From contig JANQHO010000156.1 of NCBI GenBank assembly GCA_028277105.1, positions 1 to 64,000 of the forward strand: 64,000 nucleotides of DNA. Direction: 5' to 3'. The position numbers were made by a program, and so were the translations under genes. Position 1 is the stretch's first letter, and each line of letters opens with the position of its first letter. A model generated the notes under the pieces. That model did no database searches. It was given only the letters and a program-made list of their open reading frames with translations, and had not been told where the DNA came from. Positions 12,732 to 26,858 of the stretch are shown here, in pieces. The DNA is from Owenweeksia sp. GTDB taxonomy: Bacteria; Bacteroidota; Bacteroidia; Flavobacteriales; Schleiferiaceae.

Positions 12732-15584
12732 TTAAAATTTTAATCTTACCCCTAAATCTGCCGTAAAGCCAAATACTTCACGGTTGGTTTGAAAACGTTC
12801 GTCACCAAAAAAAGCGGTCTCGGCTTGATTGGTGATATTATTCAGATTTAAGAATACCGATATCTTTTTATTGATCTTTTGTTTTAATAAGACGTCCCAA
12901 CGGGTGGTTGACCCTGTAAACTGGTCTCCTTCTTCTCGCGAACCAACGGTAAACAGTGATGCCCCCTGGTGTACCATACTTACCCTGCCACTGAAACCCT
13001 TAATCTCATAACCCAGTGAAACATTGGCTAAAAAATCGGGTTGCTGAGGAAATTGTCCTTTCCTTTCACCATCCCTGAAAATAGGATCGAAAGGGGGGTC
13101 TGGGCTATTGCCCAGTCGCTCAAAGAAAGGATAATAGGTTACTGAATTGATCCACGTGGCATTGGCGCCAAATACTACCCCATTCCAAGGTTTAGGAAGT
13201 TTGCGGAGGTTCCCCTGTACTTCAAGTTCAAGGCCATTTATAAAACTAAGCCCTTCTGCATTGCGGGGTTCACGGATCTCATAACCCTGAAAACTGGGGA
13301 ATTCCGATGAATCCGAAGGTAACACCCTTCCCTGAAAATTATAGACCACATCTGATACTTCCTTGTAGAAGTAGCCTACGGTCAGGAGCCCAAGATCGTT
13401 GTAAAATGACACAAAAAGATCATAATTATTAGAAATGCTGTAATTGAGGTTGGGGCTGGAGCGGGTGATCTGTTGCTGTTCAAAATCTATCCTTATCCAA
13501 GGTGCCAGGTCACTGTAGTTTGGCCGGTTAATGGTTCGGGTATAAGCCAGGCGAATATCCATCCATTTGAAGGGTTGAATCTTTAAATGAAACATAGGGA
13601 AGAGCTCTTCATAGGTTCTGACAGCAGTAGTATCCCGTGCATTGAGGAGTACCCACTCTTCTTCATCCTTGGTAAGATCACCCGTTCTGGCTACATAAGA
13701 GGTAGTAGTGTGTTCATAGCGAAGCCCAGCCAGGGCATTTACATATTTGGTCAATTCAAACTCGCCCATAAAGTAGGTAGCAGCTATATCCTCCACAGCA
13801 CTGTAGCTTTCAATATCCTGCCGTTGATCTTTTATATAAAAAGAACGGTAATCATTGTAAAAATCCTGGATCCTACCGCCATTAAGTGTAGGTACATTAC
13901 CCGTTTCACTGGCCACACCCAAACTAAATTCACCATCTAAAAAAGGCTTGGGAACATACCCTCCTTCTGTAAAATTTCTAACACTGATCCGGTCATCTTC
14001 GGTGAGAATAAAAAGATCCGGGTTATTGTCGGCTATTTCTTCAGCAGAATTAGGTATTAAACGCACGCGTTCTATTGTATTATCGCGATCGTTGTATCTC
14101 AATTTACCTCCAGCCTTGAACCTGGCTTTAAATCTTTCTGAAAACTTGATTTTCTTGCTGAGGTTAAAAGCCAGGTTATCATTTACTTCATAAACATTTC
14201 GGTCGTCCAGGTTTGAATCGTGAAGCTGGGTAGCAGACAAGGTATTTTTGGCACTGTCGGGTACAGCAGCTAAATTATTAGCCGGAGGGTTACCATTAAA
14301 AGCAGCCAGTTCACGGAACCTCATATTGAGATCCAGTTCATTGCGCTGTTCGCTGATCCCCCGGTTAGCACTCCAGTCAAGCTCCAAGGTTTTGGTAAGT
14401 TGATGCTTGCCCGATAAAGTATTGGAAAAAACCGTGGTAAAACGCTTCCTCAGACGCAGATCGTACTCCTGGTAATTACCATCAAGTCGGTAACGCCTAC
14501 GGTAACGTAATTCATCGCGGTATAATTCATTAAAACTGCTGGTTAGTTTTATTTCCCCACTTTCCAGTAAATAATCCAAAGACACACTGGTTCCGTAACG
14601 ATCACGGGTTTCTAACCTGTCTGATAAGTTCAGGTTATTGAGAAAAACCTTACTTTCCCCTCCCGTTTGCTCACCAGAAGCTTCATAGTCGGCTGTTAAA
14701 GCATCACTACTGCGATCAGCTCTTTGAAAATTTGCTGAAACCACCATCCCCAAGCGATCTTTTAAAAACCGGTTCTCTACATTAGCACTACCTTTAAAAA
14801 GCCCAAACCTTTCTTCGTGATCATTATACCCGGTTTGTAAGGAAACACTGGTTTTCCAATCTTTAGCAGCCTTTTTCAAAACAAAATTAACGGCCCCTCC
14901 AATAGCATCGGCATCCATATCAGGCCGCAAGGCTTTGAAAAGCTCTATTCCACCCAACACATCTGGTGAGATCATACTGAGGTCTACGCTGCGATCATCG
15001 GCATCGGTAGAAGGAATTCTTTGACCGTTAATGGTTATAGCGCTAAATCCCGGAGGTAAGCCCCGGATCACTACTTTCTGGCCTTCACCATTTTCCCGTT
15101 GTACACTAACTCCTGAAAGACGGCCTACGGTTTCTGCGGCATTCTGGTCGGGTAATGATTGGATCTTATCCCTGCTTACCACGTTAACTATAGTATTACT
15201 GCGTATCTGCTGGTTGATAGCTGCCTGTTGACCTACGGCCTGTCCGGTTATCTCTATTTCACCCAGCATTTCACTGCCTGACTTCAATTCAAAACGTTCA
15301 TCCAGAACCTCATTTTTCTCAATAGTAACGGCCTTGATAAGAGTTTCAAAGCCAATGAAAGAGACTTCAACATTGTATGTTCCCACTGGAATCTTAGCGA
15401 TCTGAAACTGCCCGTTTTGATCGGTGATAGCTCCCAGGCCTGTTTTCCCGATAACTATGGCTGCACCGGGAAGCGATTCACCAGACGAAGTTTCTACTAC
15501 CGTTCCGCGAAGAGTACCGCTTTGTCCTGAAACTGTCAATTCAGACAGTAAACAAATGACAATAAACAGCTTGTTAAGTTTCAT
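12732..15584 (-). CDS. TonB-dependent receptor, no SusD partner
   Basis: A 950-aa outer-membrane receptor: signal peptide, carboxypeptidase-regulatory-like domain (about 25-105), plug (about 125-235, with VVIRGLPPG and RSVDLSMIS) and a long beta-barrel ending in a hydrophobic strand with terminal Phe (VRLKF). I use ATG 15584 rather than the in-frame TTG six bases upstream, because the signal peptide begins there. The plug resembles the TonB receptor type common in Proteobacteria more than SusC, and no SusD gene follows. Substrate is inferred to be galacturonan oligosaccharide from the neighbours. A promoter-like element shared with the catabolic operon ends 7 nt before the start codon. Confidence 0.93.
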   Translation of the reverse strand: MKLNKLFIVICLLSELTVSGQSGTLRGTVVETSSGESLPGAAIVIGKTGLGAITDQNGQFQIAKIPVGTYNVEVSFIGFETLIKAVTIEKNEVLDERFELKSGSEMLGEIEITGQAVGQQAAINQQIRSNTIVNVVSRDKIQSLPDQNAAETVGRLSGVSVQRENGEGQKVVIRGLPPGFSAITINGQRIPSTDADDRSVDLSMISPDVLGGIELFKALRPDMDADAIGGAVNFVLKKAAKDWKTSVSLQTGYNDHEERFGLFKGSANVENRFLKDRLGMVVSANFQRADRSSDALTADYEASGEQTGGESKVFLNNLNLSDRLETRDRYGTSVSLDYLLESGEIKLTSSFNELYRDELRYRRRYRLDGNYQEYDLRLRKRFTTVFSNTLSGKHQLTKTLELDWSANRGISEQRNELDLNMRFRELAAFNGNPPANNLAAVPDSAKNTLSATQLHDSNLDDRNVYEVNDNLAFNLSKKIKFSERFKARFKAGGKLRYNDRDNTIERVRLIPNSAEEIADNNPDLFILTEDDRISVRNFTEGGYVPKPFLDGEFSLGVASETGNVPTLNGGRIQDFYNDYRSFYIKDQRQDIESYSAVEDIAATYFMGEFELTKYVNALAGLRYEHTTTSYVARTGDLTKDEEEWVLLNARDTTAVRTYEELFPMFHLKIQPFKWMDIRLAYTRTINRPNYSDLAPWIRIDFEQQQITRSSPNLNYSISNNYDLFVSFYNDLGLLTVGYFYKEVSDVVYNFQGRVLPSDSSEFPSFQGYEIREPRNAEGLSFINGLELEVQGNLRKLPKPWNGVVFGANATWINSVTYYPFFERLGNSPDPPFDPIFRDGERKGQFPQQPDFLANVSLGYEIKGFSGRVSMVHQGASLFTVGSREEGDQFTGSTTRWDVLLKQKINKKISVFLNLNNITNQAETAFFGDERFQTNREVFGFTADLGVRLKF

Positions 15585-15591
15585 TTCCAAT

Positions 15592-15623
15592 TAAGACGAT
15601 TAACTCTGGCTTAACCCTTATTT
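15592..15623 (-). promoter_or_regulatory. ECF-sigma-type promoter element before the TonB receptor
   Basis: Read on the minus strand: AAATAAGGGTTA, 13 nt, CGTCTTA. Both blocks and the spacing are identical to the element before the mini anti-sigma gene (25101-25132). Taking GGG as the -35 core gives 16 nt to CGTC, normal ECF spacing. The upstream block overlaps the stop codon of the GH28 gene, and the downstream block ends 7 nt before the receptor ATG, which predicts an almost leaderless message. Confidence 0.7.
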
Positions 15624-16887
15624 AATGATGGGACAAGTCTTTTACTTCTTCAATGGTATAACCATTAGGTGTTACCGACCCGTTAAGCAGGAGTTGGACA
15701 TTATTCATTCTCAGTTGATCGATATAACCAAATACATAATGGCCGGGGTCACTGCTCAGATCAATAGCAGCTACATTTCGAGGGTAGCTTTTGTTGCCCC
15801 TGGGCTTGCTGGCCTCAGCAAAATCTGTGGGTTTGTTATTATAAAGAGTAACATTATTGAGTTCTATTCGCCCGATCTTTTGCTGATCCTGCCCGGCTAT
15901 CAAAACCTTGCCGCTGCTGTAAATATCGATATCGCTCAGTTTTATATCGCTTATACGACCGAGGGGATAATCCGGGCTTTTTTGATCAATATCGATGAAA
16001 ATTGGATATTCCAGACGATGCCGCGATTTGCCGCTAATGCTGATTTGATGAAATTGGCAATGCTGATACAATCCCCCTTCTAACATAAAAAGGGCAATCC
16101 CATAACGGGTATTTTGAATATTGATGTTTTCAAACCGGCAAAATTGAACAACTGACTCAGAGCCCGTGCCGAATTTTATGGCAGCATCGTCACTTTGCAG
16201 GATACAATTGCTTACAAGGACATTCTCAATGGTATCTTTATTGGCCTTCAGACAAATGGCATCGTCTCCCGTTTGGATAAAACAACCTCTGACAACGACA
16301 TTTTTAGAATCTTTTATATCGATACCGTCTGTATTGGGACTACGCGGATGATTTTTAACCGTGATATTTTCCACCCAAACCCGATCACAAAAATTTAGCG
16401 ACAGTACGTGGGAAGGAGAGTTCTGCAAGATTATATCTTCTATTTTTATATTGCTCCCCTCATAAAAAACCAGCCAGGGTTCCGGGCGTTCTTTTGGGGA
16501 AAAATCTTCCTCAAAAAAATTCATCCCCTGGCCATCAATTTTTCCCTGACCGCTGATACTCACATTTTCACAGGGGTCACAATAGATCAAATGGGGATGC
16601 TCTACATCGTAATCAGCCATATCAGTACTTCCCAACAAGGTTGTTCCTGCAGCTAAATAAAGGCCCACATTGCTTTTTAAATGAAGCGTTCCTACCAGAT
16701 ACTTTCCCGGAGGGATGATCAGGGTACCTCCGCCTTTTTCATGCAGGTTGTCAATGGCTTCCTGAATTTGAAGGGAAGCCAACTTTTGTCCGTTTGCATA
16801 ATCCCTTAAGAAAGCTCCCTCTTTTTGGACATTATCACAGGAAGTTAAAAGAGTTGTGGTCAGAAGAAAACCGGCTATACTTTTCAT
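15622..16887 (-). CDS. GH28 polygalacturonase, lipoprotein
   Basis: 421-aa GH28 enzyme. ATG 16887 gives a clear lipoprotein leader with Cys17; an in-frame TTG 21 nt earlier would lie inside dctM and is less likely. Catalytic motifs are textbook: SPNTDG (Asp187), TGDDA (Asp208-Asp209) and GTGSES at about 240-245 where the family has its His/Gly motif. The protein is predicted to hydrolyse galacturonan or galacturonate oligomers in the periplasm or at the membrane, releasing galacturonate for the TRAP transporter encoded immediately before it. It overlaps no gene, but starts 10 nt after dctM ends and closes the catabolic operon. Confidence 0.92.
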   Translation of the reverse strand: MKSIAGFLLTTTLLTSCDNVQKEGAFLRDYANGQKLASLQIQEAIDNLHEKGGGTLIIPPGKYLVGTLHLKSNVGLYLAAGTTLLGSTDMADYDVEHPHLIYCDPCENVSISGQGKIDGQGMNFFEEDFSPKERPEPWLVFYEGSNIKIEDIILQNSPSHVLSLNFCDRVWVENITVKNHPRSPNTDGIDIKDSKNVVVRGCFIQTGDDAICLKANKDTIENVLVSNCILQSDDAAIKFGTGSESVVQFCRFENINIQNTRYGIALFMLEGGLYQHCQFHQISISGKSRHRLEYPIFIDIDQKSPDYPLGRISDIKLSDIDIYSSGKVLIAGQDQQKIGRIELNNVTLYNNKPTDFAEASKPRGNKSYPRNVAAIDLSSDPGHYVFGYIDQLRMNNVQLLLNGSVTPNGYTIEEVKDLSHH

Positions 16888-16897
16888 AAGAAGATTT

Positions 16898-18193
16898 TTA
16901 AAGTCCAAAAAGACCAGGGAGCCAAAGGCTAAGGTCTGGCCAGAAAGTAGTGATCAATAAGACTACTATCATGGCTAAAAACAAAGGGATAAGGGTCCGG
17001 ATAACTCTTTCTATACCAATACCAGCCACCCCACACCCCACAAATAAAACTGAGCCTACGGGTGGGGTACACAGCCCAATGCACAGGTTCATCACCATAA
17101 TGATCCCAAAGTGAATGGGGTCAATGCCTAATTCTGTTACTACTGGTAAGAAAATGGGCGTAAAAATGAGAACAGCCGGAGTCATATCCATAAAGATTCC
17201 TACCAATAGTAAGATCAGGTTTATGATCAGTAATATAGCGATGGGGTTATCACTAACCGCCAACAGGGAACGGCTTACTTCCTGGGGTATATTCTCATAG
17301 CTCATCGTCCAGCTCAAAGCCATGGAGGTAGAAATAAGCAAGGCCACAATAGCAGTAGTATTAGCACTTTGCAGCAATATGCCATACAGGTCTTTAACTT
17401 TGATCTCGCGGTATAAAAAAGATAATACCAGAGTATAAATCACGGCTATCCCTGAAGCTTCAGTAGCGGTAAAAATCCCCACTACTATACCTCCTATCAC
17501 CAGTACCAATAAAAAAAGGCTGGGCAAAGCATGAAAAAAACTACTAAGCCCTTCCGAAAGACTCACCCCCGTAGTAGCTCTGTAACCTTTACGCCAGGCA
17601 ATATAACCTCCTACTATCACGAGAGAGAGACCTAATAATAAGCCCGGAAGATAGCCTGCCAGGAATAGGGCTCCTATGCTTACCCCGCCACTGGCCAGAG
17701 AATATACAATGAGGATATTACTGGGGGGAATGACCAATCCGGTAGTAGAAGCAGTTACATTTACTGCGGCACTGTAACCCGGATCATAGCCTTCCTTTTT
17801 CATACGGGGAGCCATAAAACCGCCTATGGCCGAAGCTGCGGCCACGGCCGAACCAGAAATAGCCCCAAAAAGCATGGCCGCTATAATGTTAATGTAAGCG
17901 AGGCCTCCCGGGAAAAAACCCGTAAACACCCTGGCAAAATCAATAAGCCGCCTGGCAATACCCCCTTTATTCATGATATTTCCCGCCAGGATAAAGAAGG
18001 GGATGGCCAAAAGTGAAAAGCTATCCAGAGCAGTGGCCATTCTTTGGGCAGAAGTAGCTGAAGCTACCGCTATATCCATGTTAATCATCAACACCAAAAA
18101 AGCACTGATGCCAACACTGTAGGCTACCGGCACTCCTAAAAGCAGGAGCCCCACAAAACTGACCAGCAACAAAAGAACGTCAACGTTATCCAT
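16898..18193 (-). CDS. dctM: TRAP transporter large permease (DctM)
   Basis: 431 aa with about 12 hydrophobic segments; the DctM hallmarks are VAYSVGISAF, ILAGNIMNKGGIA, AMLFGAISGSAVAAASA, and GIIMVMNLCIGLCTPPVG. It is the channel-forming subunit of a sodium-driven TRAP transporter in the inner membrane. The start overlaps the dctQ stop by one base (TGATG). Given its place between kdgA and a polygalacturonase, galacturonate or glucuronate is the likely substrate. Confidence 0.95.
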   Translation of the reverse strand: MDNVDVLLLLVSFVGLLLLGVPVAYSVGISAFLVLMINMDIAVASATSAQRMATALDSFSLLAIPFFILAGNIMNKGGIARRLIDFARVFTGFFPGGLAYINIIAAMLFGAISGSAVAAASAIGGFMAPRMKKEGYDPGYSAAVNVTASTTGLVIPPSNILIVYSLASGGVSIGALFLAGYLPGLLLGLSLVIVGGYIAWRKGYRATTGVSLSEGLSSFFHALPSLFLLVLVIGGIVVGIFTATEASGIAVIYTLVLSFLYREIKVKDLYGILLQSANTTAIVALLISTSMALSWTMSYENIPQEVSRSLLAVSDNPIAILLIINLILLLVGIFMDMTPAVLIFTPIFLPVVTELGIDPIHFGIIMVMNLCIGLCTPPVGSVLFVGCGVAGIGIERVIRTLIPLFLAMIVVLLITTFWPDLSLWLPGLFGL

Positions 18194-18720
18194 CAGCGGT
18201 TGATCTTATTTTTTTCGATAACATTGATCCTGGGATTCAAAAAGTTAAGCAGGCTATAAACACAGATAAGCAGGCCACTGAGAGGAATAGCAAGATATAC
18301 GTAGCCCAGAGGAAGTTGCAAAGCAGCCGAGGTTTGCCCTAAGCTTAGCGTAAGAATAACCAGGGAAAAACCTCCGTGAACCATTACGAGGAGGGCAAAA
18401 AAGGCTACCAGGCTATGAATACATCTTTTAAGTATAATCTGTTTCCTTGCTTTTTGACGGGTAACTACTATATCGATCGCCAGGTGAAGCCGCTGTCCGG
18501 TTACGTAGGCTGCCCCTAACAATCCGAGCCAGATCAACAAAAAGCGGGAAAGCTCATCGGTAAAAGAGCTGGGTTCATTTAACAGGTGGCGGGAAGCTAT
18601 CTGCCAAAGTACTACTAATACCAATCCTCCCATGAGGGATACTACCAGAGTACTTAGTATTTTATCCAAAAAATCGCGTAATATGAAACGTTTACGTCCT
18701 CCTCCTACTTCAGTGGTCAT
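18193..18720 (-). CDS. dctQ: TRAP transporter small permease (DctQ)
   Basis: 175 aa with four hydrophobic segments and the DctQ pattern around SSFTDELSRFLLIWLGLLGAA. I start at ATG 18720, which overlaps the end of dctP by 11 nt; a TTG nine bases upstream is the only other choice. It bridges the binding protein and the large permease. Confidence 0.92.
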   Translation of the reverse strand: MTTEVGGGRKRFILRDFLDKILSTLVVSLMGGLVLVVLWQIASRHLLNEPSSFTDELSRFLLIWLGLLGAAYVTGQRLHLAIDIVVTRQKARKQIILKRCIHSLVAFFALLVMVHGGFSLVILTLSLGQTSAALQLPLGYVYLAIPLSGLLICVYSLLNFLNPRINVIEKNKINR

Positions 18721-19708
18721 AAAGAGCAACTTGATTCAAATAATAGTCGATAAGGGAATCTTGCCGATAAGCCTGAAACATCCCTGCAATAGCTTGTTTG
18801 AAGACGCTTTTATCCGGTATTATAATAGTGACCCCTGCCTTTTCCACCTCAGCCAGGGCTTTCTCCTCACTTTCCTCCCATAACTTTCTTTGTAACTTTA
18901 CACTGGATCTTACCGCTTCTTTTAACCAGTTCTTTTCCTGTTGGTTAAGATCATTCCAGGTTTTCAAACTGATCAATAGCACATCAGGTACCAGGGTATG
19001 TTCATCCAAAGAGTAGTATCGACAAACTTCATAATGACGGGAAAGGTAAAAACTGGGAGGATTGTTTTCTGCTCCGTCTACAACCCCCTGCTGTAAAGCA
19101 GTATAAAGTTCTCCCCAACTAATAGGAGTAGGGGAACCTCCCATAGAGCGCACCATGTTAATGGCTGTAATACTTTCCTGTACGCGAATCTTCAAGCCTT
19201 TGAGGTCGGCCGGAGAATGAACTGCCCGATCTTTAGTATAAAAACTGCGACTGCCTGCATCATAAAAACACAGCCCCCTGAAATGCTGAGGGTAGCAGGA
19301 CTTGAGCAACTCTTCTCCCAATGGGCCATCGTAAACTCTATGGGCATGGGATTTATCGCTAAAGGCGTAAGGGATGCTTAAAACACCCATATCGGGAACA
19401 AAATTCTCAAGTACAGCGGCTGAAACTTTAGTGATGTCTACGCTGCCCAACTGTAGCAGTTCCAGGCATTCGCGTTCAGAGCCCAGCTGTTGTGAAGGGT
19501 ATATTTTGAGACTTAGTTCACCGTCTGAGATCTCGGTGAGCTTTTCCCCCAGATGTTCCATAGCCTTATGCACAGGATGATTGACATCCAGGCCATGAGC
19601 CAGTTTGAATTCCTTCCCCTTTTTCTCACTACCGCAGGACATCAATAGCAGCAGAAGGCTCAATGCCCCTCCTAAAAGGTGGTATTTCGGGAGGAGCTTC
19701 CGGGTCAT
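18710..19708 (-). CDS. dctP: TRAP substrate-binding lipoprotein (DctP family)
   Basis: 332 aa. The leader ends in a lipobox (LMSCG), so unlike the soluble periplasmic proteins of Gram-negatives with TRAP systems it is probably membrane-tethered. DctP signatures include a start with FKLAHGLDVNHPVHKA, LKIYPSQQLGSE, GLKIRVQES (the family's carboxylate-binding Arg lies in this segment) and VDGAENNP. The protein captures a carboxylated sugar for DctQM. Its ATG overlaps the kdgA stop (ATGA). Confidence 0.93.
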   Translation of the reverse strand: MTRKLLPKYHLLGGALSLLLLLMSCGSEKKGKEFKLAHGLDVNHPVHKAMEHLGEKLTEISDGELSLKIYPSQQLGSERECLELLQLGSVDITKVSAAVLENFVPDMGVLSIPYAFSDKSHAHRVYDGPLGEELLKSCYPQHFRGLCFYDAGSRSFYTKDRAVHSPADLKGLKIRVQESITAINMVRSMGGSPTPISWGELYTALQQGVVDGAENNPPSFYLSRHYEVCRYYSLDEHTLVPDVLLISLKTWNDLNQQEKNWLKEAVRSSVKLQRKLWEESEEKALAEVEKAGVTIIIPDKSVFKQAIAGMFQAYRQDSLIDYYLNQVALYDH

Positions 19709-20379
19709 AGGTTTCGGATTTCCTTGATCAGATGATAAGCATTTTTAACATCAGTGCTTATTTTTTGATAATTTCCCGTTGAAACGGCCTGTTTATCTAT
19801 AAGTTTGCTCCCCATCCCCACACAACAAGCTCCGGCATCAAACCAGGATTGAAGATTTTCCCCTTCAGGAGATACCCCCCCGGTAGGCATGATCAAAGTC
19901 CAGGGCATAGGCCCTAAGATAGCTTTCACAAAACCCGGCCCGCCAACCTGGGTACCGGGAAAGATCTTAACAATCTCTGCTCCTAATCTGTGTGCTTTAT
20001 CTATTTCTGTTACCGATCCACAACCGGGAGACCATAATACTTTACGTTGGTTACACAGGTATGCTGTTTCTTCGTTCAACAAGGGTGAAACTACGAAGTT
20101 TGCTCCAAGTTGCAGGTAAAGTGCTGCTGTAGGAGCATCTATTACAGAGCCTACCCCCAGTACCATATCGGGCATTTTACTTCGGGTATAACCCATCAAA
20201 TCCGAAAATACTTCATGGGCTTTATCGCCTCGGTTAGTAAATTCAAAAACCCTCACCCCTGCCTCGTATACAGCTTTTAATACCTCTATTGCCACTTCAG
20301 TATCAGCATGGTAAAATACTGGTACCAGACCTGAATCTATCAGCTGTTGAGCTGCTTGTAATCGTCTGAATCTTGCCAT
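19705..20379 (-). CDS. kdgA: 2-keto-3-deoxy-6-phosphogluconate aldolase
   Basis: A 224-aa KDPG/KHG aldolase (Eda family) that splits KDPG to pyruvate and glyceraldehyde-3-phosphate. The general base region is EFTNRG (Glu46) and the Schiff-base lysine is Lys138 in IVKIFPG; a phosphate-binding PTGGV follows. Length is normal. It ends the cytosolic route started by UxaC and sits 1 nt after kdgK. Confidence 0.95.
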   Translation of the reverse strand: MARFRRLQAAQQLIDSGLVPVFYHADTEVAIEVLKAVYEAGVRVFEFTNRGDKAHEVFSDLMGYTRSKMPDMVLGVGSVIDAPTAALYLQLGANFVVSPLLNEETAYLCNQRKVLWSPGCGSVTEIDKAHRLGAEIVKIFPGTQVGGPGFVKAILGPMPWTLIMPTGGVSPEGENLQSWFDAGACCVGMGSKLIDKQAVSTGNYQKISTDVKNAYHLIKEIRNL

Positions 20380-20380
20380 T

Positions 20381-21424
20381 TTATCGTGCTACCCGGCCAC
20401 TGGCGTCACCGGTCATAAGTTTTTCTACTTCTTCTACTGTAACCATATTGAAGTCGCCTCGTATTGTATGTTTCAGACAGCTTGCTGCCACTGCAAATTG
20501 CAAGGCCTTTTCATCATCACTGGGATAAGCGTGCAAACCATAGATTAAACCTCCCATAAAACTATCTCCTCCTCCTACCCGGTCTACAATATGAGTAATT
20601 TGATAAGTTGGTGCTATAAATAATTGGTCACCATTGTAAAGAACCCCACTCCAACTATTATGGTTCGCTGAAACAGAGCCTCTTAAAGTTATGACTGCTT
20701 TTTTACAGCGGGGAAAACGTTCCATTAACTGCCGACATACGCTTTCATAGGCTTTGGCATCCATAGTATCACCCCGTGTAACATCTACCCCTTCCGGGTG
20801 TATTCCAAATACTCTTTCGGCATCCTCTTCATTTCCCAGTATAAGATCACAACCCGAAACCAGATCAGGCATCACATCAGCAGGGGGTTTTCCCCACTTC
20901 CAAAGCTTTTTGCGATAATTCAGATCCGTAGAAACCTTGATCCCTCTTAGATTAGCTTGCTTGATAGCCTCACTACAAACTAATGCTGCACCTTCTGAAA
21001 TAGCAGGTGTAATACCCGTCCAGTGAAACCAGCCAGCCCCTTTAAAAACAACATCCCAATTGATCATGCCTGGTTCTATTTTGCTGAATGCCGAATGCGC
21101 CCGGTCGTAAACTACTTTGCTGCCCCTTGCCACAGCTCCGGTTTCCAGAAAATAGATCCCTAAGCGATCTCCTCCTCTTATGATAGTAGAGGTATCTATA
21201 TTCCATTTGCGCAAAGTGGCTAAAGCTGCTTCTCCAATATCATTTTGGGGCAAGCGGGTCACAAAACGAGTCTTCATACCATAATTGGCCAGAGAAACAG
21301 CTACATTGGCTTCACCGCCACCATACAAAGCTTCGAACGAAGCTGTTTGAGCAAACCGAAGATAGGCAGGGGTTGCCAACCTAAGCATAATCTCTCCTAG
21401 AGTTACTACCGTTTTGTATACCAT
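20381..21424 (-). CDS. kdgK: 2-keto-3-deoxygluconate kinase
   Basis: A 347-aa PfkB-family sugar kinase making KDPG from KDG. Visible family features are the N-terminal TLGEIMLRL, the substrate region LYGGGEANVAVSLANYG, STDLNYRKKLW and the ATP/catalytic motif VGGGDSFMGG. It is about 35 residues longer than the E. coli enzyme, as is common in Bacteroidota. Lies between uxaC and kdgA with 5-nt and 1-nt gaps. Confidence 0.93.
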   Translation of the reverse strand: MVYKTVVTLGEIMLRLATPAYLRFAQTASFEALYGGGEANVAVSLANYGMKTRFVTRLPQNDIGEAALATLRKWNIDTSTIIRGGDRLGIYFLETGAVARGSKVVYDRAHSAFSKIEPGMINWDVVFKGAGWFHWTGITPAISEGAALVCSEAIKQANLRGIKVSTDLNYRKKLWKWGKPPADVMPDLVSGCDLILGNEEDAERVFGIHPEGVDVTRGDTMDAKAYESVCRQLMERFPRCKKAVITLRGSVSANHNSWSGVLYNGDQLFIAPTYQITHIVDRVGGGDSFMGGLIYGLHAYPSDDEKALQFAVAASCLKHTIRGDFNMVTVEEVEKLMTGDASGRVAR

Positions 21425-21429
21425 ATGAG

Positions 21430-22896
21430 TTATGTTGTTGAAGTGCTTTTTCTGTTGAGCTGACCTTTGCTATTTAAGGCTTCCTGATGGGCTGCATCAA
21501 ACTTGAAATAATTACGGGCATTGTAATAACAAATGTCACTGACCAATTTTCCAAGCCATTGATCATCATTAGGCAGCAAACCATTTTCCACGTCATTACC
21601 TAACATATTACACAGTATTCTACGAAAATACTCATGCCTGGGGAAGGACAAAAAGCTCCGACTATCAGTTAACATGCCTATAAAAGTTGATAGCAGCCCC
21701 ATATTACTCAAAGTATTGAGCTGCTTTTCGATACCTTCCTTTTGGTCGAGAAACCACCAGGCACTACCCCATTGTATTTTTCCTTTGGTGCCACTCTCCT
21801 GAAAATTTCCTGTCATAGTAGCAAAAATCTCATTATCAGCCGGATTCAGGTTATAGATAATGGTTTTAGTCAGTTGATCGGTATTTTGAAGACGATTGAA
21901 AAATTGTTGCATTTTTTGGGCCTGGGGAAAATCGCCTATACTGTCATATCCGCTATCAGGCCCATTAACCTCAAGTTTCGACAGATTGGTATTGCGTAAA
22001 GCTCCAAGGTGATACTGCTGAACCCAGCCACGGGCATGATACATACGTGATAATTTGATGAGCACTGCATAACGGAAAACTTCCTTTTTGGATGGAGATA
22101 TTTCCTTATTCTGTCTCATCTGGGTAAAAAGATTATTGATCTCTATCTCATTACAGAGCTGAAAATGCAAGTGAGTAAGCCCATGGTCTGAAAGACGGCA
22201 ACCATTGGCATGGAAATAATCGATCCGGCTTTCCAGAGCATCCATCAAATTATAGAAGCTACTGATCTCTACCCCGCTTACCTCCGCAAGGCGGTCCACA
22301 TAATCATTCCATGATTGTATATTGTCAACCGCATAAGCTTTATCAGGACGAAAGGTCGGCAGCATGATCGGCCCATCTTCTTTTCTGAACATCTGATGAT
22401 ACTCCAAACCCTCAACCGGATCATCGGTGGTACAAACTACTTCAACCTTCATTTTCTTCAGAATCCCCTGGGTCGAAAAGTCAGGCTGTTGAAGCAAACC
22501 CGAGGATTTATCATAAACTTCATCGGCATTATCCTCATTGAGAAGAATGTTTATGCCAAAAGGCTTCTGCAATTCCATATGGGTCCAATGGTACAAAGGA
22601 TTGCGCATAGTATAGGGAACGGTCTTGGCCCATGCGATAAATTTATCACGATCATCGGCAGAACCCGTTATATTCTTTTCATCAACACCCATAGTGCGCA
22701 TAGCCCGCCATTTATAGTGATCCCCTTCCAGCCAGGCACGAGTAATATTCTCAAACTGACGATCTTTGGCAATATCTTCAGGTGAAAGATGACAGTGATA
22801 ATCAACAATAGGCAAGTCGGCTGCGTAATCATAATAGAGACGTGCTGCCGTTTTGGTTTCCAGTAAAAAATCTTCCGTTAAAAATTCTTTCATCAT
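21430..22896 (-). CDS. uxaC: Glucuronate/galacturonate isomerase
   Basis: 488-aa uronate isomerase, which converts galacturonate to tagaturonate and glucuronate to fructuronate and so feeds both branches encoded here. The amidohydrolase-like metal motif VDYHCHLSP (His34, His36) and the C-terminal RHEYFRRILCNMLG are typical. The gene begins ATGATG; either Met is possible. It starts directly after the uxuA stop. Confidence 0.96.
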   Translation of the reverse strand: MMKEFLTEDFLLETKTAARLYYDYAADLPIVDYHCHLSPEDIAKDRQFENITRAWLEGDHYKWRAMRTMGVDEKNITGSADDRDKFIAWAKTVPYTMRNPLYHWTHMELQKPFGINILLNEDNADEVYDKSSGLLQQPDFSTQGILKKMKVEVVCTTDDPVEGLEYHQMFRKEDGPIMLPTFRPDKAYAVDNIQSWNDYVDRLAEVSGVEISSFYNLMDALESRIDYFHANGCRLSDHGLTHLHFQLCNEIEINNLFTQMRQNKEISPSKKEVFRYAVLIKLSRMYHARGWVQQYHLGALRNTNLSKLEVNGPDSGYDSIGDFPQAQKMQQFFNRLQNTDQLTKTIIYNLNPADNEIFATMTGNFQESGTKGKIQWGSAWWFLDQKEGIEKQLNTLSNMGLLSTFIGMLTDSRSFLSFPRHEYFRRILCNMLGNDVENGLLPNDDQWLGKLVSDICYYNARNYFKFDAAHQEALNSKGQLNRKSTSTT

Positions 22897-24066
22897 TTAA
22901 TGGCTTAGTCCATATTCAAGACCCCTCAACTCGGCTAAACCCTTAAGCCTTCCTATGCCCGAATAGCCAGGATTGGTTTTCTTCTTCAAATCATCTAACA
23001 GCTGATGGCCATGATCTGGCCGCATGGGAATTGATATTTGGTGCTTTTGCATCAGCTCGACAAAAAGTTTCACCAAATGGTACATGGAATTGCTTCCTTC
23101 CAGATGATTGGCTTCATAAAAACTACCGTCATCCTCTAACTGAACCGATCGGAGATGAACAAAGTGGATGTGTTTTCCCAATAAACGGATTATGGCTTCC
23201 AAGTCATTATCCTTACGTGCTCCCAGTGATCCGGAGCAAAAACACATTCCGTTTACAGGAGAAGGAACGGCTTCAATAAGCTTCTGGTAATCTTCCAGCG
23301 TACTAGCAACACGGGGTAAGTTAAAAAGGGCAAACGGTGGATCATCGGGATGCAAAGACAAGGTACTGCCACAGTCTTCCACTACCGGTACTATCTCCTT
23401 CAAAAAAGCGATCAGGTTAGCTCTCAATTCATCCGGCCCGGTATTCTCATATTCCCAGAGTTTTTTGCGAAAGCTGTCTATATCCCACCGCTCTTCACTG
23501 CCGGGCAGTCCTGCCAAAATAGTATTTGTCAATTCTGTCTTGCTTGCCTCATCCAACTGTTCGTAAAACCTCAAAGCCACTGTTTTTTGATCTTCTGTCA
23601 GACCGGTACCGGGGAGTTCCAGTTCATACAATAAAAAAGCATGATAGGCTACCAGGTGAAAGCGTAAGGCCTTACCTCTATGTGGTAACTGATAGCTTAG
23701 ATCGGTACGCGTCCAGTCCAGTACCGGCATGAAATTATAGGTAATATTATGTATCCCTGCTGCTGCCAGGTTGCGAATAGTTTCCTGGTAGTTTTTTATC
23801 AGTTGTTTGTAATTTCCCTTCCTGAGTTTAATATTCTCATGTACAGGCACTGACTCAACCACTAACCAATGAAGCCCGGCCTGATCGATCAACTTTTGCC
23901 GTTCTTTAATTTCTTCTACGGGCCATACTTCCCCATTGGGAATGTGGTGAAGAGCGTGTACTACATTTGTCGCACCAGCCTGCCTAACATCCGATAAACT
24001 AACAACATCGTCAGGTCCAAACCAACGCCATGACTGCTTAAACTTATACTGACACATATTTGTCAT
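22897..24066 (-). CDS. uxuA: Mannonate dehydratase
   Basis: 389-aa UxuA that dehydrates D-mannonate to KDG. It shows WRWFGPDD, HHIPNGEVWP, TYNFMPVLDWTRTDL, LHPDDPP and MRPDHGHQ, the usual substrate/metal segments of this barrel enzyme; length equals the E. coli enzyme. The ATG directly follows the upstream gene's TAA. It completes the glucuronate (fructuronate/mannonate) branch. Confidence 0.96.
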   Translation of the reverse strand: MTNMCQYKFKQSWRWFGPDDVVSLSDVRQAGATNVVHALHHIPNGEVWPVEEIKERQKLIDQAGLHWLVVESVPVHENIKLRKGNYKQLIKNYQETIRNLAAAGIHNITYNFMPVLDWTRTDLSYQLPHRGKALRFHLVAYHAFLLYELELPGTGLTEDQKTVALRFYEQLDEASKTELTNTILAGLPGSEERWDIDSFRKKLWEYENTGPDELRANLIAFLKEIVPVVEDCGSTLSLHPDDPPFALFNLPRVASTLEDYQKLIEAVPSPVNGMCFCSGSLGARKDNDLEAIIRLLGKHIHFVHLRSVQLEDDGSFYEANHLEGSNSMYHLVKLFVELMQKHQISIPMRPDHGHQLLDDLKKKTNPGYSGIGRLKGLAELRGLEYGLSH

Positions 24067-24870
24067 TTAAAATCCTCCGAAAGCGCTAAACCCGCCATCT
24101 ACCGGGATAACAGAACCCGTTACAAACGAAGAGGCATCTGAACTCAGCCAATGAACGGCTCCCAGCAATTCGTCAGGTTTACCCAGCCTTCCTGCCGGTG
24201 TATGTTTTATGATGTCCTGTGTCCGCTCGGTATAGCTCCCGTCAGGGTTGGTGAGTAAGCCCCGGTTCTGCTCGGTAAGGAAAAATCCCGGAGCAATGGC
24301 GTTAACCCTTATTCCATCGCCAAATTTGGCGGCCATTTCGCAAGCAAGGAATTTGGTAAAATGATCTACTCCCGCCTTGGCATTGCCGTAGCCCAGCACC
24401 CGGCTAATAGGCCGTGTTGCGGTCATAGATGAAATATTGATAATAGAACCTTTTGAGTTTTTAACCATAAGAGGAGCCAGAAACCGGGTCGCTTTTACGG
24501 TTGATGTAAGATTAAGAGCCACTACTTTCTCGTATGCCTTCATATCCAGGTCAAAAAAATTCTGATCTGGCGCGATAGTAGCACCTGGCATATTTCCCCC
24601 CGCTGCATTAATAAGTATATCCAGTTGGCCGTATTCTCCTTTGAGATCATTGTGAAGGACTTGTAAATTGCTCTCCGAGGTGACATCACAATGCATTACC
24701 TCTATTTTTCGCTCTGTAAACTCCTTGGGAATAGCTCCATTGCGATCTGCTGCAATAACCTTTACTCCGTTTTCGGCCAGGCTAACTGCCATTGTTCTTC
24801 CCAATACACCTGTTCCTCCGGTAATCAGGGCTATTTTACCTGCAAGCCTGAAAAGAGAGCTGATCTTCAT
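24067..24870 (-). CDS. SDR oxidoreductase, probable fructuronate reductase (UxuB role)
   Basis: A 267-aa short-chain dehydrogenase: GGTGVLG cofactor motif near residue 18, NAAGG, a catalytic Ser region (INISSMTA) and YGNAK, and the C-terminal VDGGFSAFGG. Its place directly before uxuA, and the absence of a second UxaB-type enzyme, suggest it reduces fructuronate to mannonate, as SDR enzymes do in other Bacteroidota uxu loci. Could also be a KDG or gluconate dehydrogenase. It overlaps the preceding small gene as ATGA. Confidence 0.85.
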   Translation of the reverse strand: MKISSLFRLAGKIALITGGTGVLGRTMAVSLAENGVKVIAADRNGAIPKEFTERKIEVMHCDVTSESNLQVLHNDLKGEYGQLDILINAAGGNMPGATIAPDQNFFDLDMKAYEKVVALNLTSTVKATRFLAPLMVKNSKGSIINISSMTATRPISRVLGYGNAKAGVDHFTKFLACEMAAKFGDGIRVNAIAPGFFLTEQNRGLLTNPDGSYTERTQDIIKHTPAGRLGKPDELLGAVHWLSSDASSFVTGSVIPVDGGFSAFGGF

Positions 24871-25082
24871 TTTTGGATTTTCTTTTTGATTTTCAGAAAA
24901 GCTTTTTCACTGTCGAAACGACTTTGAGCTTTTTCAGAATAATTCTGGGTCAATATTTCCCTCATATCATCCAGGAGTGATAGGGATAGACCTTCCTTTT
25001 GTAGACGCATTTGAAGCCGTTTGTATGTATCCGTAGAAGGTTTGGCCAGTATGTAGCTGTCTATTAGCGCTGCAATCTCCAT
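24867..25082 (-). CDS. 71-aa protein resembling the cytoplasmic part of a FecR-type anti-sigma factor
   Basis: A small, charged, wholly helical-looking protein with no membrane segment. Its plan (N-terminal helix, mid helix with DDMREILTQ, then RFDSEKAFLKIKKKI) resembles, from memory, the N-terminal anti-sigma region of Bacteroidota FecR proteins, where an acidic residue and EKAW/EKAF precede a basic helix. It lies downstream of an ECF sigma gene in the usual sigma/anti-sigma order, but stops where a FecR protein would enter the membrane. The ATG is preceded by a promoter-like element, and the stop overlaps the SDR start as ATGA, so the gene is placed as first gene of the catabolic operon. 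The overlap argues for a real gene rather than debris. Function is inference. Confidence 0.65.
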   Translation of the reverse strand: MEIAALIDSYILAKPSTDTYKRLQMRLQKEGLSLSLLDDMREILTQNYSEKAQSRFDSEKAFLKIKKKIQK

Positions 25083-25100: not shown

Positions 25101-25132
25101 TAAGACGGATACCTGGCGACTAACCCTTATTT
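25101..25132 (-). promoter_or_regulatory. ECF-sigma-type promoter element before the catabolic operon
   Basis: On the minus strand: AAATAAGGGTTA, 13 nt, CGTCTTA, identical in both blocks and spacing to the element before the TonB receptor gene at 15592-15623. It ends 18 nt before the 71-aa gene's ATG and follows the ECF sigma gene. A nearby imperfect inverted repeat (CCCTAT / ATAAGGG) means a weak sigma-gene terminator is an alternative reading of the upstream block. Confidence 0.7.
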
Positions 25133-25166: not shown

Positions 25167-25709
25167 CTAATACATAGCTGCCACTTTTCGAAGCTCTTTT
25201 AGGGCTTTGGTCATCTGCGTTTCCACAGTTTTGACTGATATTTTAAGCTTAGCCGCTATTTCAGAATACTTAAGACCTTGTTCCCTGCTCAGGCGGAATA
25301 TTTGCTGGCATTTAGGAGGGAGGTTACGAAGACGCCCCTCGATTTTATTGAGTTGGTAAAGCAATTGAAATTTCTTTTCAATGTCGCTGTGCTCATCTAC
25401 TATTTGCTGCAGTTGTCCGGTATCCTGAAAGCCTTGGCTGCGCTTGTTTTTCTTTAATACGTCTATGCAACGGTTACGCGTAATGGCAAATAGATAATAT
25501 TTAAAGGATGAATTTATTTCAATACTTTCTCTCCGCGACCACAACTTTAAAAAGACGTGGGATACCACATCTTCAGCTTCGTCAGGATCTTCCATAATTT
25601 TAAGGGCGTAAGCACATAAGGAGATATAATATTTTTTAAATAAGACCTGGAAGGACTGATGATCTGAATTCTTTGAGATTCGTATGAAATTTTCTTCGTC
25701 TGATAACAT
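25167..25709 (-). CDS. ECF RNA polymerase sigma factor (FecI-like, Bacteroidota type)
   Basis: 180 aa with region 2 (FKKYYISLCAYALKIMEDPDEAEDVVSHVFLKLW, about 24-57) and region 4 (LPPKCQQIFRLSREQGLKYSEIAAKLKISVKTVETQM, about 129-170). It directs RNA polymerase to specific promoters. It is divergent from a lacI-type gene with a double operator between them, and is followed by the mini anti-sigma gene. No copy of the shared promoter element was found before it, so it is probably not autoregulated but under LacI control. Confidence 0.93.
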   Translation of the reverse strand: MLSDEENFIRISKNSDHQSFQVLFKKYYISLCAYALKIMEDPDEAEDVVSHVFLKLWSRRESIEINSSFKYYLFAITRNRCIDVLKKNKRSQGFQDTGQLQQIVDEHSDIEKKFQLLYQLNKIEGRLRNLPPKCQQIFRLSREQGLKYSEIAAKLKISVKTVETQMTKALKELRKVAAMY

Positions 25710-25784: not shown

Positions 25785-25826
25785 AAAATTCACGGGAACG
25801 TTCCCGGGAACGTTCCCGTGAATTTT
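25785..25826. promoter_or_regulatory. 42-bp perfect palindrome with two tandem LacI-type operators
   Basis: The whole 42 bp reads the same on both strands, centred between 25805 and 25806. Inside, GGGAACGTTCCC occurs twice without a gap (25794-25805 and 25806-25817); each is itself a perfect palindrome with the central CG typical of LacI-family operators. It ends 27 nt before the lacI-type start and lies 75 nt upstream of the sigma start, so it can govern both genes. Confidence 0.8.
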
Positions 25827-25853: not shown

Positions 25854-26858
25854 ATGAAGCATACCACAATAAAGGATATTGCTCGCGCTTTGGGTATTTC
25901 AAAATCTACTGTTTCCAGAGCATTACGAGATCACTATGACATCAATCCGGAAACGCGAAAATTGGTGCTGGATATGGCGGCAAAAATGAATTATAGCCCC
26001 AGTGCCCAGGCCATTGCCTTCCAGCACGGACAAACCAAAACTATTGCCGTGATCGTGCCTGAAATAGATAACCCTTTTTTTTCTAATTGTATCAATGGAG
26101 TAGAAAATGCCGCTGCCGGAACAGACTACCTCATTATTATTAACCAAACCCGTAACATTGAAAGAGTTGAAGTTGAGACCATCAACCGCCTCATTTCAAT
26201 GCGGGTTGATGGGGTGATCATGTCACTGGCATCGGGTACGGTAAATCTGAATCATATCAAAAGGTTGCAAAACCTGGAAATGCCTTTGGTACTTTTCGAC
26301 CGCGTTACTGACCGTATTGATTGCCATAAAATTTTTAACGATGATTTTGAAGGAGCTTACAAGGCTACTCAATACCTTATAAGCAAAGGGTATCAAAACA
26401 TAGCCCACCTATGCGGATTTAAAAATCTGCATATTTCAAGAGAAAGGCTGGCCGGCTACGAAAAGGCTTTAATGGATGCCGGGCTTAAGGTAAAACCGGA
26501 AAATATCATTGAAACAGATTTTAAGATCAGAGAAGCTAAAATCCACGCCAAAAAACTGCTACAGCAACCTATCCGCCCTGATGCTATTTTTGGAGTAAGT
26601 GATCACGTTGCTTTGGGCTGTATCCTAGCAGCGCGTGAACTAAACCTGAAGATTCCGGATGATATAGCTGTAATAGGTTTTAGTGACCTTACTTATGCTG
26701 AAATATTAAACCCTCCTCTTACTACTATTCAACAACCTTCCTTTGAAATGGGAAAACTCAGTTTTGAAATGATTATGGAACAGATCGAACAGGGAACACA
26801 AAAAGGAACCCGCTCGGTATGTTTGAAAACCAAGCTCATTGAAAGAGGATCTGCTTAG
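25854..26858 (+). CDS. LacI-family transcriptional regulator
   Basis: 334 aa: N-terminal helix-turn-helix (TIKDIARALGISKSTVSRAL, about 4-23) with hinge helix, followed by a periplasmic-binding-protein-like ligand domain (KTIAVIVPEIDNPFFS, DGVIMS, DLTYAEILNPPLTTI). Length is normal. It probably represses itself and the divergent ECF sigma gene through the abutting operators, and releases on binding a sugar acid such as KDG or a uronate. The ligand is inference. Confidence 0.93.
   Translation: MKHTTIKDIARALGISKSTVSRALRDHYDINPETRKLVLDMAAKMNYSPSAQAIAFQHGQTKTIAVIVPEIDNPFFSNCINGVENAAAGTDYLIIINQTRNIERVEVETINRLISMRVDGVIMSLASGTVNLNHIKRLQNLEMPLVLFDRVTDRIDCHKIFNDDFEGAYKATQYLISKGYQNIAHLCGFKNLHISRERLAGYEKALMDAGLKVKPENIIETDFKIREAKIHAKKLLQQPIRPDAIFGVSDHVALGCILAARELNLKIPDDIAVIGFSDLTYAEILNPPLTTIQQPSFEMGKLSFEMIMEQIEQGTQKGTRSVCLKTKLIERGSA

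Follow-up and report, generated by a model that had tools for sequence, protein, structure and literature searches.

The window, that is, the whole 64-kb stretch of DNA that was analysed, contains a gene for a 71-aa protein, termed mini-FecR here, which is placed between a gene for a FecI-type ECF sigma factor and a uronate catabolic operon. Four other genomes enter the comparison with the window's own genome (G000): G022 represents another genus of the same family, G452 comes from a different family within the same class, and G743 and the related G922 have only the phylum in common with it. The locus comprises the following genes and elements:

25854..26858, (+): LacI-family regulator, encoded divergently from sigma
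25806..25817, no strand: LacI-operator-like palindrome GGGAACGTTCCC, copy 2, abutting copy 1; one mismatch in this copy in G452
25794..25805, no strand: LacI-operator-like palindrome GGGAACGTTCCC, copy 1; same tandem pair in G022
25167..25709, (-): FecI-type ECF sigma factor, 180 aa (TIGR02985 Sig70_bacteroi1); 60% identical ortholog in G022
25101..25126, (-): FecI-type promoter-like element GGGTTA-N14-GTCTTA in the gap between sigma and mini-FecR; counterpart at the same place in G022
24867..25082, (-): mini-FecR, 71 aa, free-standing homolog of the cytoplasmic N-terminal domain of FecR
24067..24870, (-): D-mannonate oxidoreductase-like SDR, ATGA overlap with mini-FecR
22897..24066, (-): mannonate dehydratase, UxuA-like (putative, named from sequence)
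21430..22896, (-): glucuronate isomerase, UxaC-like (putative, named likewise)
20381..21424, (-): KDG kinase, KdgK-like (putative, named likewise)
19705..20379, (-): KDPG aldolase-like (putative, named likewise)
16898..19708, (-): TRAP transporter, DctP/Q/M-like, three genes (putative, named likewise)
15622..16908, (-): GH28 polygalacturonase/rhamnogalacturonidase-like enzyme; the best NCBIfam matches fall short of the cut-offs
15592..15617, (-): second exact copy of the promoter-like element, directly before the receptor start codon; counterpart at the same place in G022
12732..15590, (-): TonB-dependent receptor made up of CarboxypepD_reg, Plug and barrel domains; 15584 is the likely ATG

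The sigma factor scores 162.8 bits against TIGR02985, for which the cut-off is 126.4, and both sigma-70 regions 2 and 4 are present. A domain search of the receptor at 12732-15590 revealed no STN signalling domain. The receptor gene is followed by a gene whose product is secreted and bears a T9SS tail, and farther out lie an altronate/galactarate dehydratase-like gene and a tagaturonate reductase gene; the locus is a uronate/pectin utilisation cluster.

The mini-FecR reading frame has 71 codons, starts with ATG 84 bp past the stop codon of the sigma gene and overlaps the next gene by the 4 bp ATGA. No transmembrane segment is present (best 19-residue hydropathy 0.43), and the periplasmic FecR domain is absent as well, with no Pfam match to it and a protein that ends after the N-domain; zinc-site cysteines are likewise lacking. 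An earlier note on this DNA had described a clean ATG, the ATGA overlap and the missing membrane anchor, all of which are borne out. A frameshifted or decayed full-length FecR as the origin of the small ORF was ruled out, there being no downstream FecR remnant in any frame.

Pfam searches with mini-FecR returned zero matches and a sequence search of the PDB found no relative, and homology was assessed with dedicated profiles. Against a FecR-N HMM built from 25 FecR N-termini and other mini-FecRs, with the window protein and its ortholog left out, mini-FecR scores 18.3 bits and none of 10,000 shuffled sequences scores as well; the G022 ortholog reaches only 7.3 bits, equalled by 3 of 10,000 shuffles, and the top score among about 510 unrelated natural ORFs is 2.7 bits. 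An earlier HMM made of canonical FecRs alone, with no mini-FecR included, gives 17.1 bits for the window protein (1 of 2,500 shuffles as good), 22.4 bits for the G452 protein and 26.4 bits for that of G743. Profile-profile comparison of the two orthologs with 24 FecR N-termini and other mini-FecRs by hhalign yields a probability of 95.7 and E = 9.5e-9 over 69 of 72 columns. In an alignment with 22 FecR N-termini, mini-FecR requires almost no gaps and ends at the point where FecR enters its linker and membrane helix; an FD-x3-A(W/F) motif near its end is common to the FecR alignment, and two tryptophans conserved in FecR are absent. The G452 protein provides a direct link, matching a complete FecR of 334 aa in the N-terminal part with E = 3e-4. 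Mini-FecR is genuinely related, over its full length, to the cytoplasmic N-terminal domain of FecR, and the profile scores thus sustain the resemblance to a cytoplasmic anti-sigma region that had been proposed for it.

The predicted structure of mini-FecR (pLDDT 82) has helices at residues 2-12, 17-29, 34-46 and 58-70 and a short one at 50-55. A FecR N-domain of the window's own genome shares this arrangement of four main helices, which there lie at 10-17, 23-35, 37-54 and 64-75. The top PDB matches of that domain are the anti-sigma domains of MucA, RsiW, RslA and RseA, which are bound to sigma factors in those entries; the matches are weak (E 0.35 and up). Comparison of the mini-FecR model itself with the PDB by Foldseek and VIA-align gave no convincing match, an absence that does not count as evidence.

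Conservation analysis located the closest counterpart in G022, where the locus is fully syntenic from LacI, sigma, mini-FecR, SDR and UxuA through to the TonB receptor and the mini-FecR ortholog has the same length and 38% identity (35-38%). The earlier note had counted absence of the gene from relatives with the same locus as an argument against its reading; the ortholog in identical synteny shows that the gene is conserved there. A contig scan with mini-FecR alone found no relatives, and with the sigma pair the G022 locus was the only close match; among 396 genomes of the order, real matches to mini-FecR occur only in G000 and G022, beside one spurious match with stops. Further mini-FecRs of 66-72 aa follow FecI-type sigma genes in two other Bacteroidota lineages. 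In G452, a TonB receptor gene comes after LacI, sigma and a 72-aa mini-FecR, and genes resembling those for UxuA, GH28 and tagaturonate reductase lie in the vicinity. G743 and G922 have the order sigma, mini-FecR and TonB receptor, in G743 also with secreted-enzyme genes. The receptors at mini-FecR loci belong to one TonB subfamily and are 35-40% identical over their length. In a phylum-wide survey of TonB receptors in 395 genomes, the best 30 receptors were inspected and only the top three (window, G452 and G743) have a mini-FecR locus, indicating that the module is rare. The G452 locus (L079:6024-17471) is a second pectin-type cluster with LacI, sigma, mini-FecR and a receptor of this subfamily, found in a different family and with rearranged catabolic gene order. 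Horizontal spread of the regulatory module is possible.

The small gene could in principle be a remnant of a former FecR system, or could serve only translation coupling of the operon, in either case with no effect on the sigma factor. The loss of the conserved tryptophans fits such a role, as does the faster change of mini-FecR, which is 35-38% identical between the window and G022 compared with 60% for the sigma factors. However, the ORF is intact and of the same length in two genera, and differences in this pair are distributed over codon positions 1, 2 and 3 as 41, 30 and 47 of 71, indicating constraint at the protein level; in another pair of mini-FecRs the substitutions are 23, 15 and 38 of 66. 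Synonymous sites are saturated between these genes, precluding a dN/dS estimate. Together with the occurrence of mini-FecRs in two more lineages and the absence of leftover FecR sequence, this makes a remnant or a pure coupling device improbable.

The gap between sigma and mini-FecR contains the element GGGTTA-N14-GTCTTA, in line with the earlier suggestion that mini-FecR has its own promoter-like element, which is real as a pattern. The generalized pattern GGGTWA-N14-GTCTTW has exactly two exact matches in the 64-kb window, with 0.07 expected, one ahead of mini-FecR and one ahead of the TonB receptor. The G022 locus likewise has exactly two such sites, at the same two genes, with 0.01 expected. 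The pattern was written after the site at mini-FecR and its G022 counterpart had been seen, so that the independent evidence consists of the receptor site in the window and that in G022. Judged from match lengths, the exact 14-base spacing occurs three times genome-wide in G000 and four times in G022, and two of each are at this locus. Similar elements lie ahead of the receptor in G743 and G922; the element preceding the G452 mini-FecR is weak, with 3 mismatches and 11% of shuffles as good. A simple scan for sigma-70 promoters and terminators found nothing clearly over chance.

The pattern is also seen in the FecI-FecR gaps of loci L007, L009, L010 and L057 from other genomes, where it has 0-2 mismatches and a 14-base spacer and lies 8-21 bases before FecR. 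GGGTWA-N14-GTCTTW is thereby a candidate consensus for Bacteroidota FecI-type promoters, and its occurrence fits a promoter that would be read by FecI-type sigma factors. Since such an element precedes mini-FecR, it is plausible that the sigma factor drives the mini-FecR gene, as the earlier note had supposed. Downstream of the GH28 stop codon there are about 37 bases (15584-15622), into which the receptor promoter is squeezed, its -10-like box lying 7 bases before the ATG. This suggests that the receptor mRNA may be leaderless or nearly so; short or no leaders would be implied by -10-like boxes very near the start codons.

In the gap between the LacI and sigma genes, the two abutting GGGAACGTTCCC palindromes form the sole exact pair genome-wide in G000 and in G022. 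The tandem pair is kept in this gap in three genomes, those of the window, G022 and G452 (the last with one mismatch), and in all three LacI is divergent from the sigma gene. In G743 and G922 no LacI gene directly adjoins the sigma gene, indicating that LacI control is not universal. The picture drawn in the earlier note is supported in part: it had described the sigma gene, its small partner and the promoter between them, and had missed the divergent LacI with its tandem operators, which is the likely input, as well as the second promoter copy before the STN-less receptor.

The same genome has 16 matches to ECF sigma factors, several of them with full FecRs. The closest FecI paralogs, C80, C22 and C111, are each followed by a full FecR of 319-340 aa, and the C22 receptor carries an STN-like domain, whereas the window, G022 and G452 receptors lack one. 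These FecI-FecR-SusC/TonB systems share with the window locus a FecI-type sigma factor, a FecR N-domain and an outer-membrane receptor as target, and a FecI-type promoter is found at several Bacteroidota FecI-FecR junctions as it is here. They differ in that their FecRs span the membrane and, at C22, the receptor has a signalling domain, whereas both signalling halves are missing in the window and a LacI gene is divergent. The number of sigma factors in the cell, several paired with full FecRs, would also allow mini-FecR to act, by cross-talk among FecI paralogs, on a sigma factor other than its neighbour; wherever such a protein was found, however, its gene is strictly paired with that of its own sigma factor, which makes this very improbable.

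Building on what is observed at the locus, namely the homology, the lack of a membrane part, a gene order kept among relatives, palindromes that resemble operators and two copies of a promoter-like element, we propose the following circuit. A cytoplasmic uronate-type signal would lift LacI repression at the tandem operators, so that the sigma factor is made. The sigma factor would then transcribe mini-FecR together with the downstream uronate operon, and also the TonB receptor, from the GGGTWA-N14-GTCTTW promoters. A signal from the cell surface would not be needed, because mini-FecR lacks the transmembrane and periplasmic domains and the receptor lacks STN. Mini-FecR would resemble the fragment released from a normal FecR by proteolysis and would keep a pro-sigma role, binding the sigma factor and helping it to work. 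That mini-FecR is a dedicated cytoplasmic partner of the sigma factor in a LacI-controlled circuit is a prediction that we consider likely to be correct.

The sign of its action is less clear. The E. coli fragment FecR(1-85) activates FecI without a signal (PMC8144685), and fragments 1-93 of FoxR and 1-91 of FiuR from Pseudomonas activate their sigma factors, while the corresponding FpvR fragment inhibits (PMC9249621), as does the N-domain of Leptospira LIC12756 in growing cells (PMC13118517). Because the E. coli fragment activates FecI while others inhibit, activator and inhibitor are, as judged from sequence, nearly equal candidates for the effect of mini-FecR on the sigma factor. The earlier note had suggested a soluble inhibitor and negative feedback; in this reading mini-FecR would sequester the sigma factor, and its sigma-driven production would cap expression of the receptor and the uronate genes. 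Such an inhibitor would be in keeping with the weak resemblance of the same-genome FecR N-domain to class I anti-sigma domains that block sigma factors, with the inhibition by the isolated FpvR and Leptospira FecR-like N-domains, with the sigma-type promoter ahead of mini-FecR and with the small soluble anti-sigma factors known from other ECF groups. However, FecR(1-85), the equivalent studied in most detail, is an activator, no mechanism of release can be seen, and if inhibition were the sole role, loss of the whole gene after the takeover by LacI would be simplest, yet mini-FecRs persist in several lineages. We regard inhibition as a real possibility with appreciably less than an even chance. 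A pro-sigma effect is slightly favoured, because this domain would be the sole part of FecR still required after LacI took over control; its probability is only slightly better than even. The statement as a whole, combining a dedicated sigma partner, a LacI-controlled circuit and a pro-sigma sign, falls somewhat short of an even chance.

The nearest known counterpart, E. coli FecR 1-85 released by RseP, is the same part of the protein, of similar size, soluble and a partner of a FecI-type sigma factor; however, it arises by proteolysis of a membrane protein upon FecA signalling, whereas mini-FecR has its own gene. In Sinorhizobium fredii (RirA/FecI-FecR/fprA), as in the proposed circuit, a cytoplasmic repressor controls fecI, and FecI binds the promoters of fecR and the receptor gene and drives both, but FecR is there a normal membrane protein that needs RseP (PMC8822346). 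ChrR, RshA and CfrX are soluble partners of ECF sigma factors like mini-FecR, and CfrX is likewise small. In contrast to mini-FecR, which has FecR homology and no zinc-site cysteines, these proteins sense the redox state or belong to other families. A 79-aa FecR-N-like protein of G880:C91 (L114:1453-1692, (-); 27.9 bits with the FecR-N HMM) comes after a different ECF sigma factor (RpoE/SigW-like, 199 aa) and before an endonuclease III-like gene; other ECF groups, too, may have small soluble proteins that resemble anti-sigma factors.

Neither FecI-FecR systems nor soluble anti-sigma factors are new. No description of stand-alone FecR N-domains was found in the literature searched; the main ECF reclassification work, which lay outside that search, may note them. 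New within this literature is the recurrence of a stand-alone FecR N-domain together with receptors that lack STN, accompanied in three genomes by a divergent LacI gene. Such stand-alone pieces apparently recur where a LacI repressor or a similar input has replaced cell-surface signalling. They may reflect a recurrent rewiring in Bacteroidota, in which FecI-FecR is converted into a sigma factor with a permanently "pre-cleaved" activating mini-FecR and a LacI sugar sensor replaces the receptor as input, a generalization that we put forward tentatively and somewhat below even probability. Whether a FecR N-domain alone activates or inhibits has so far been studied with engineered truncations. The loci described here carry truncations that exist in nature, and their target promoters are predicted, so that the question becomes directly testable in a native setting. 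They also suggest how, in pectin-degrading Bacteroidota, an internal metabolite may come to drive what was a surface-signalling system.
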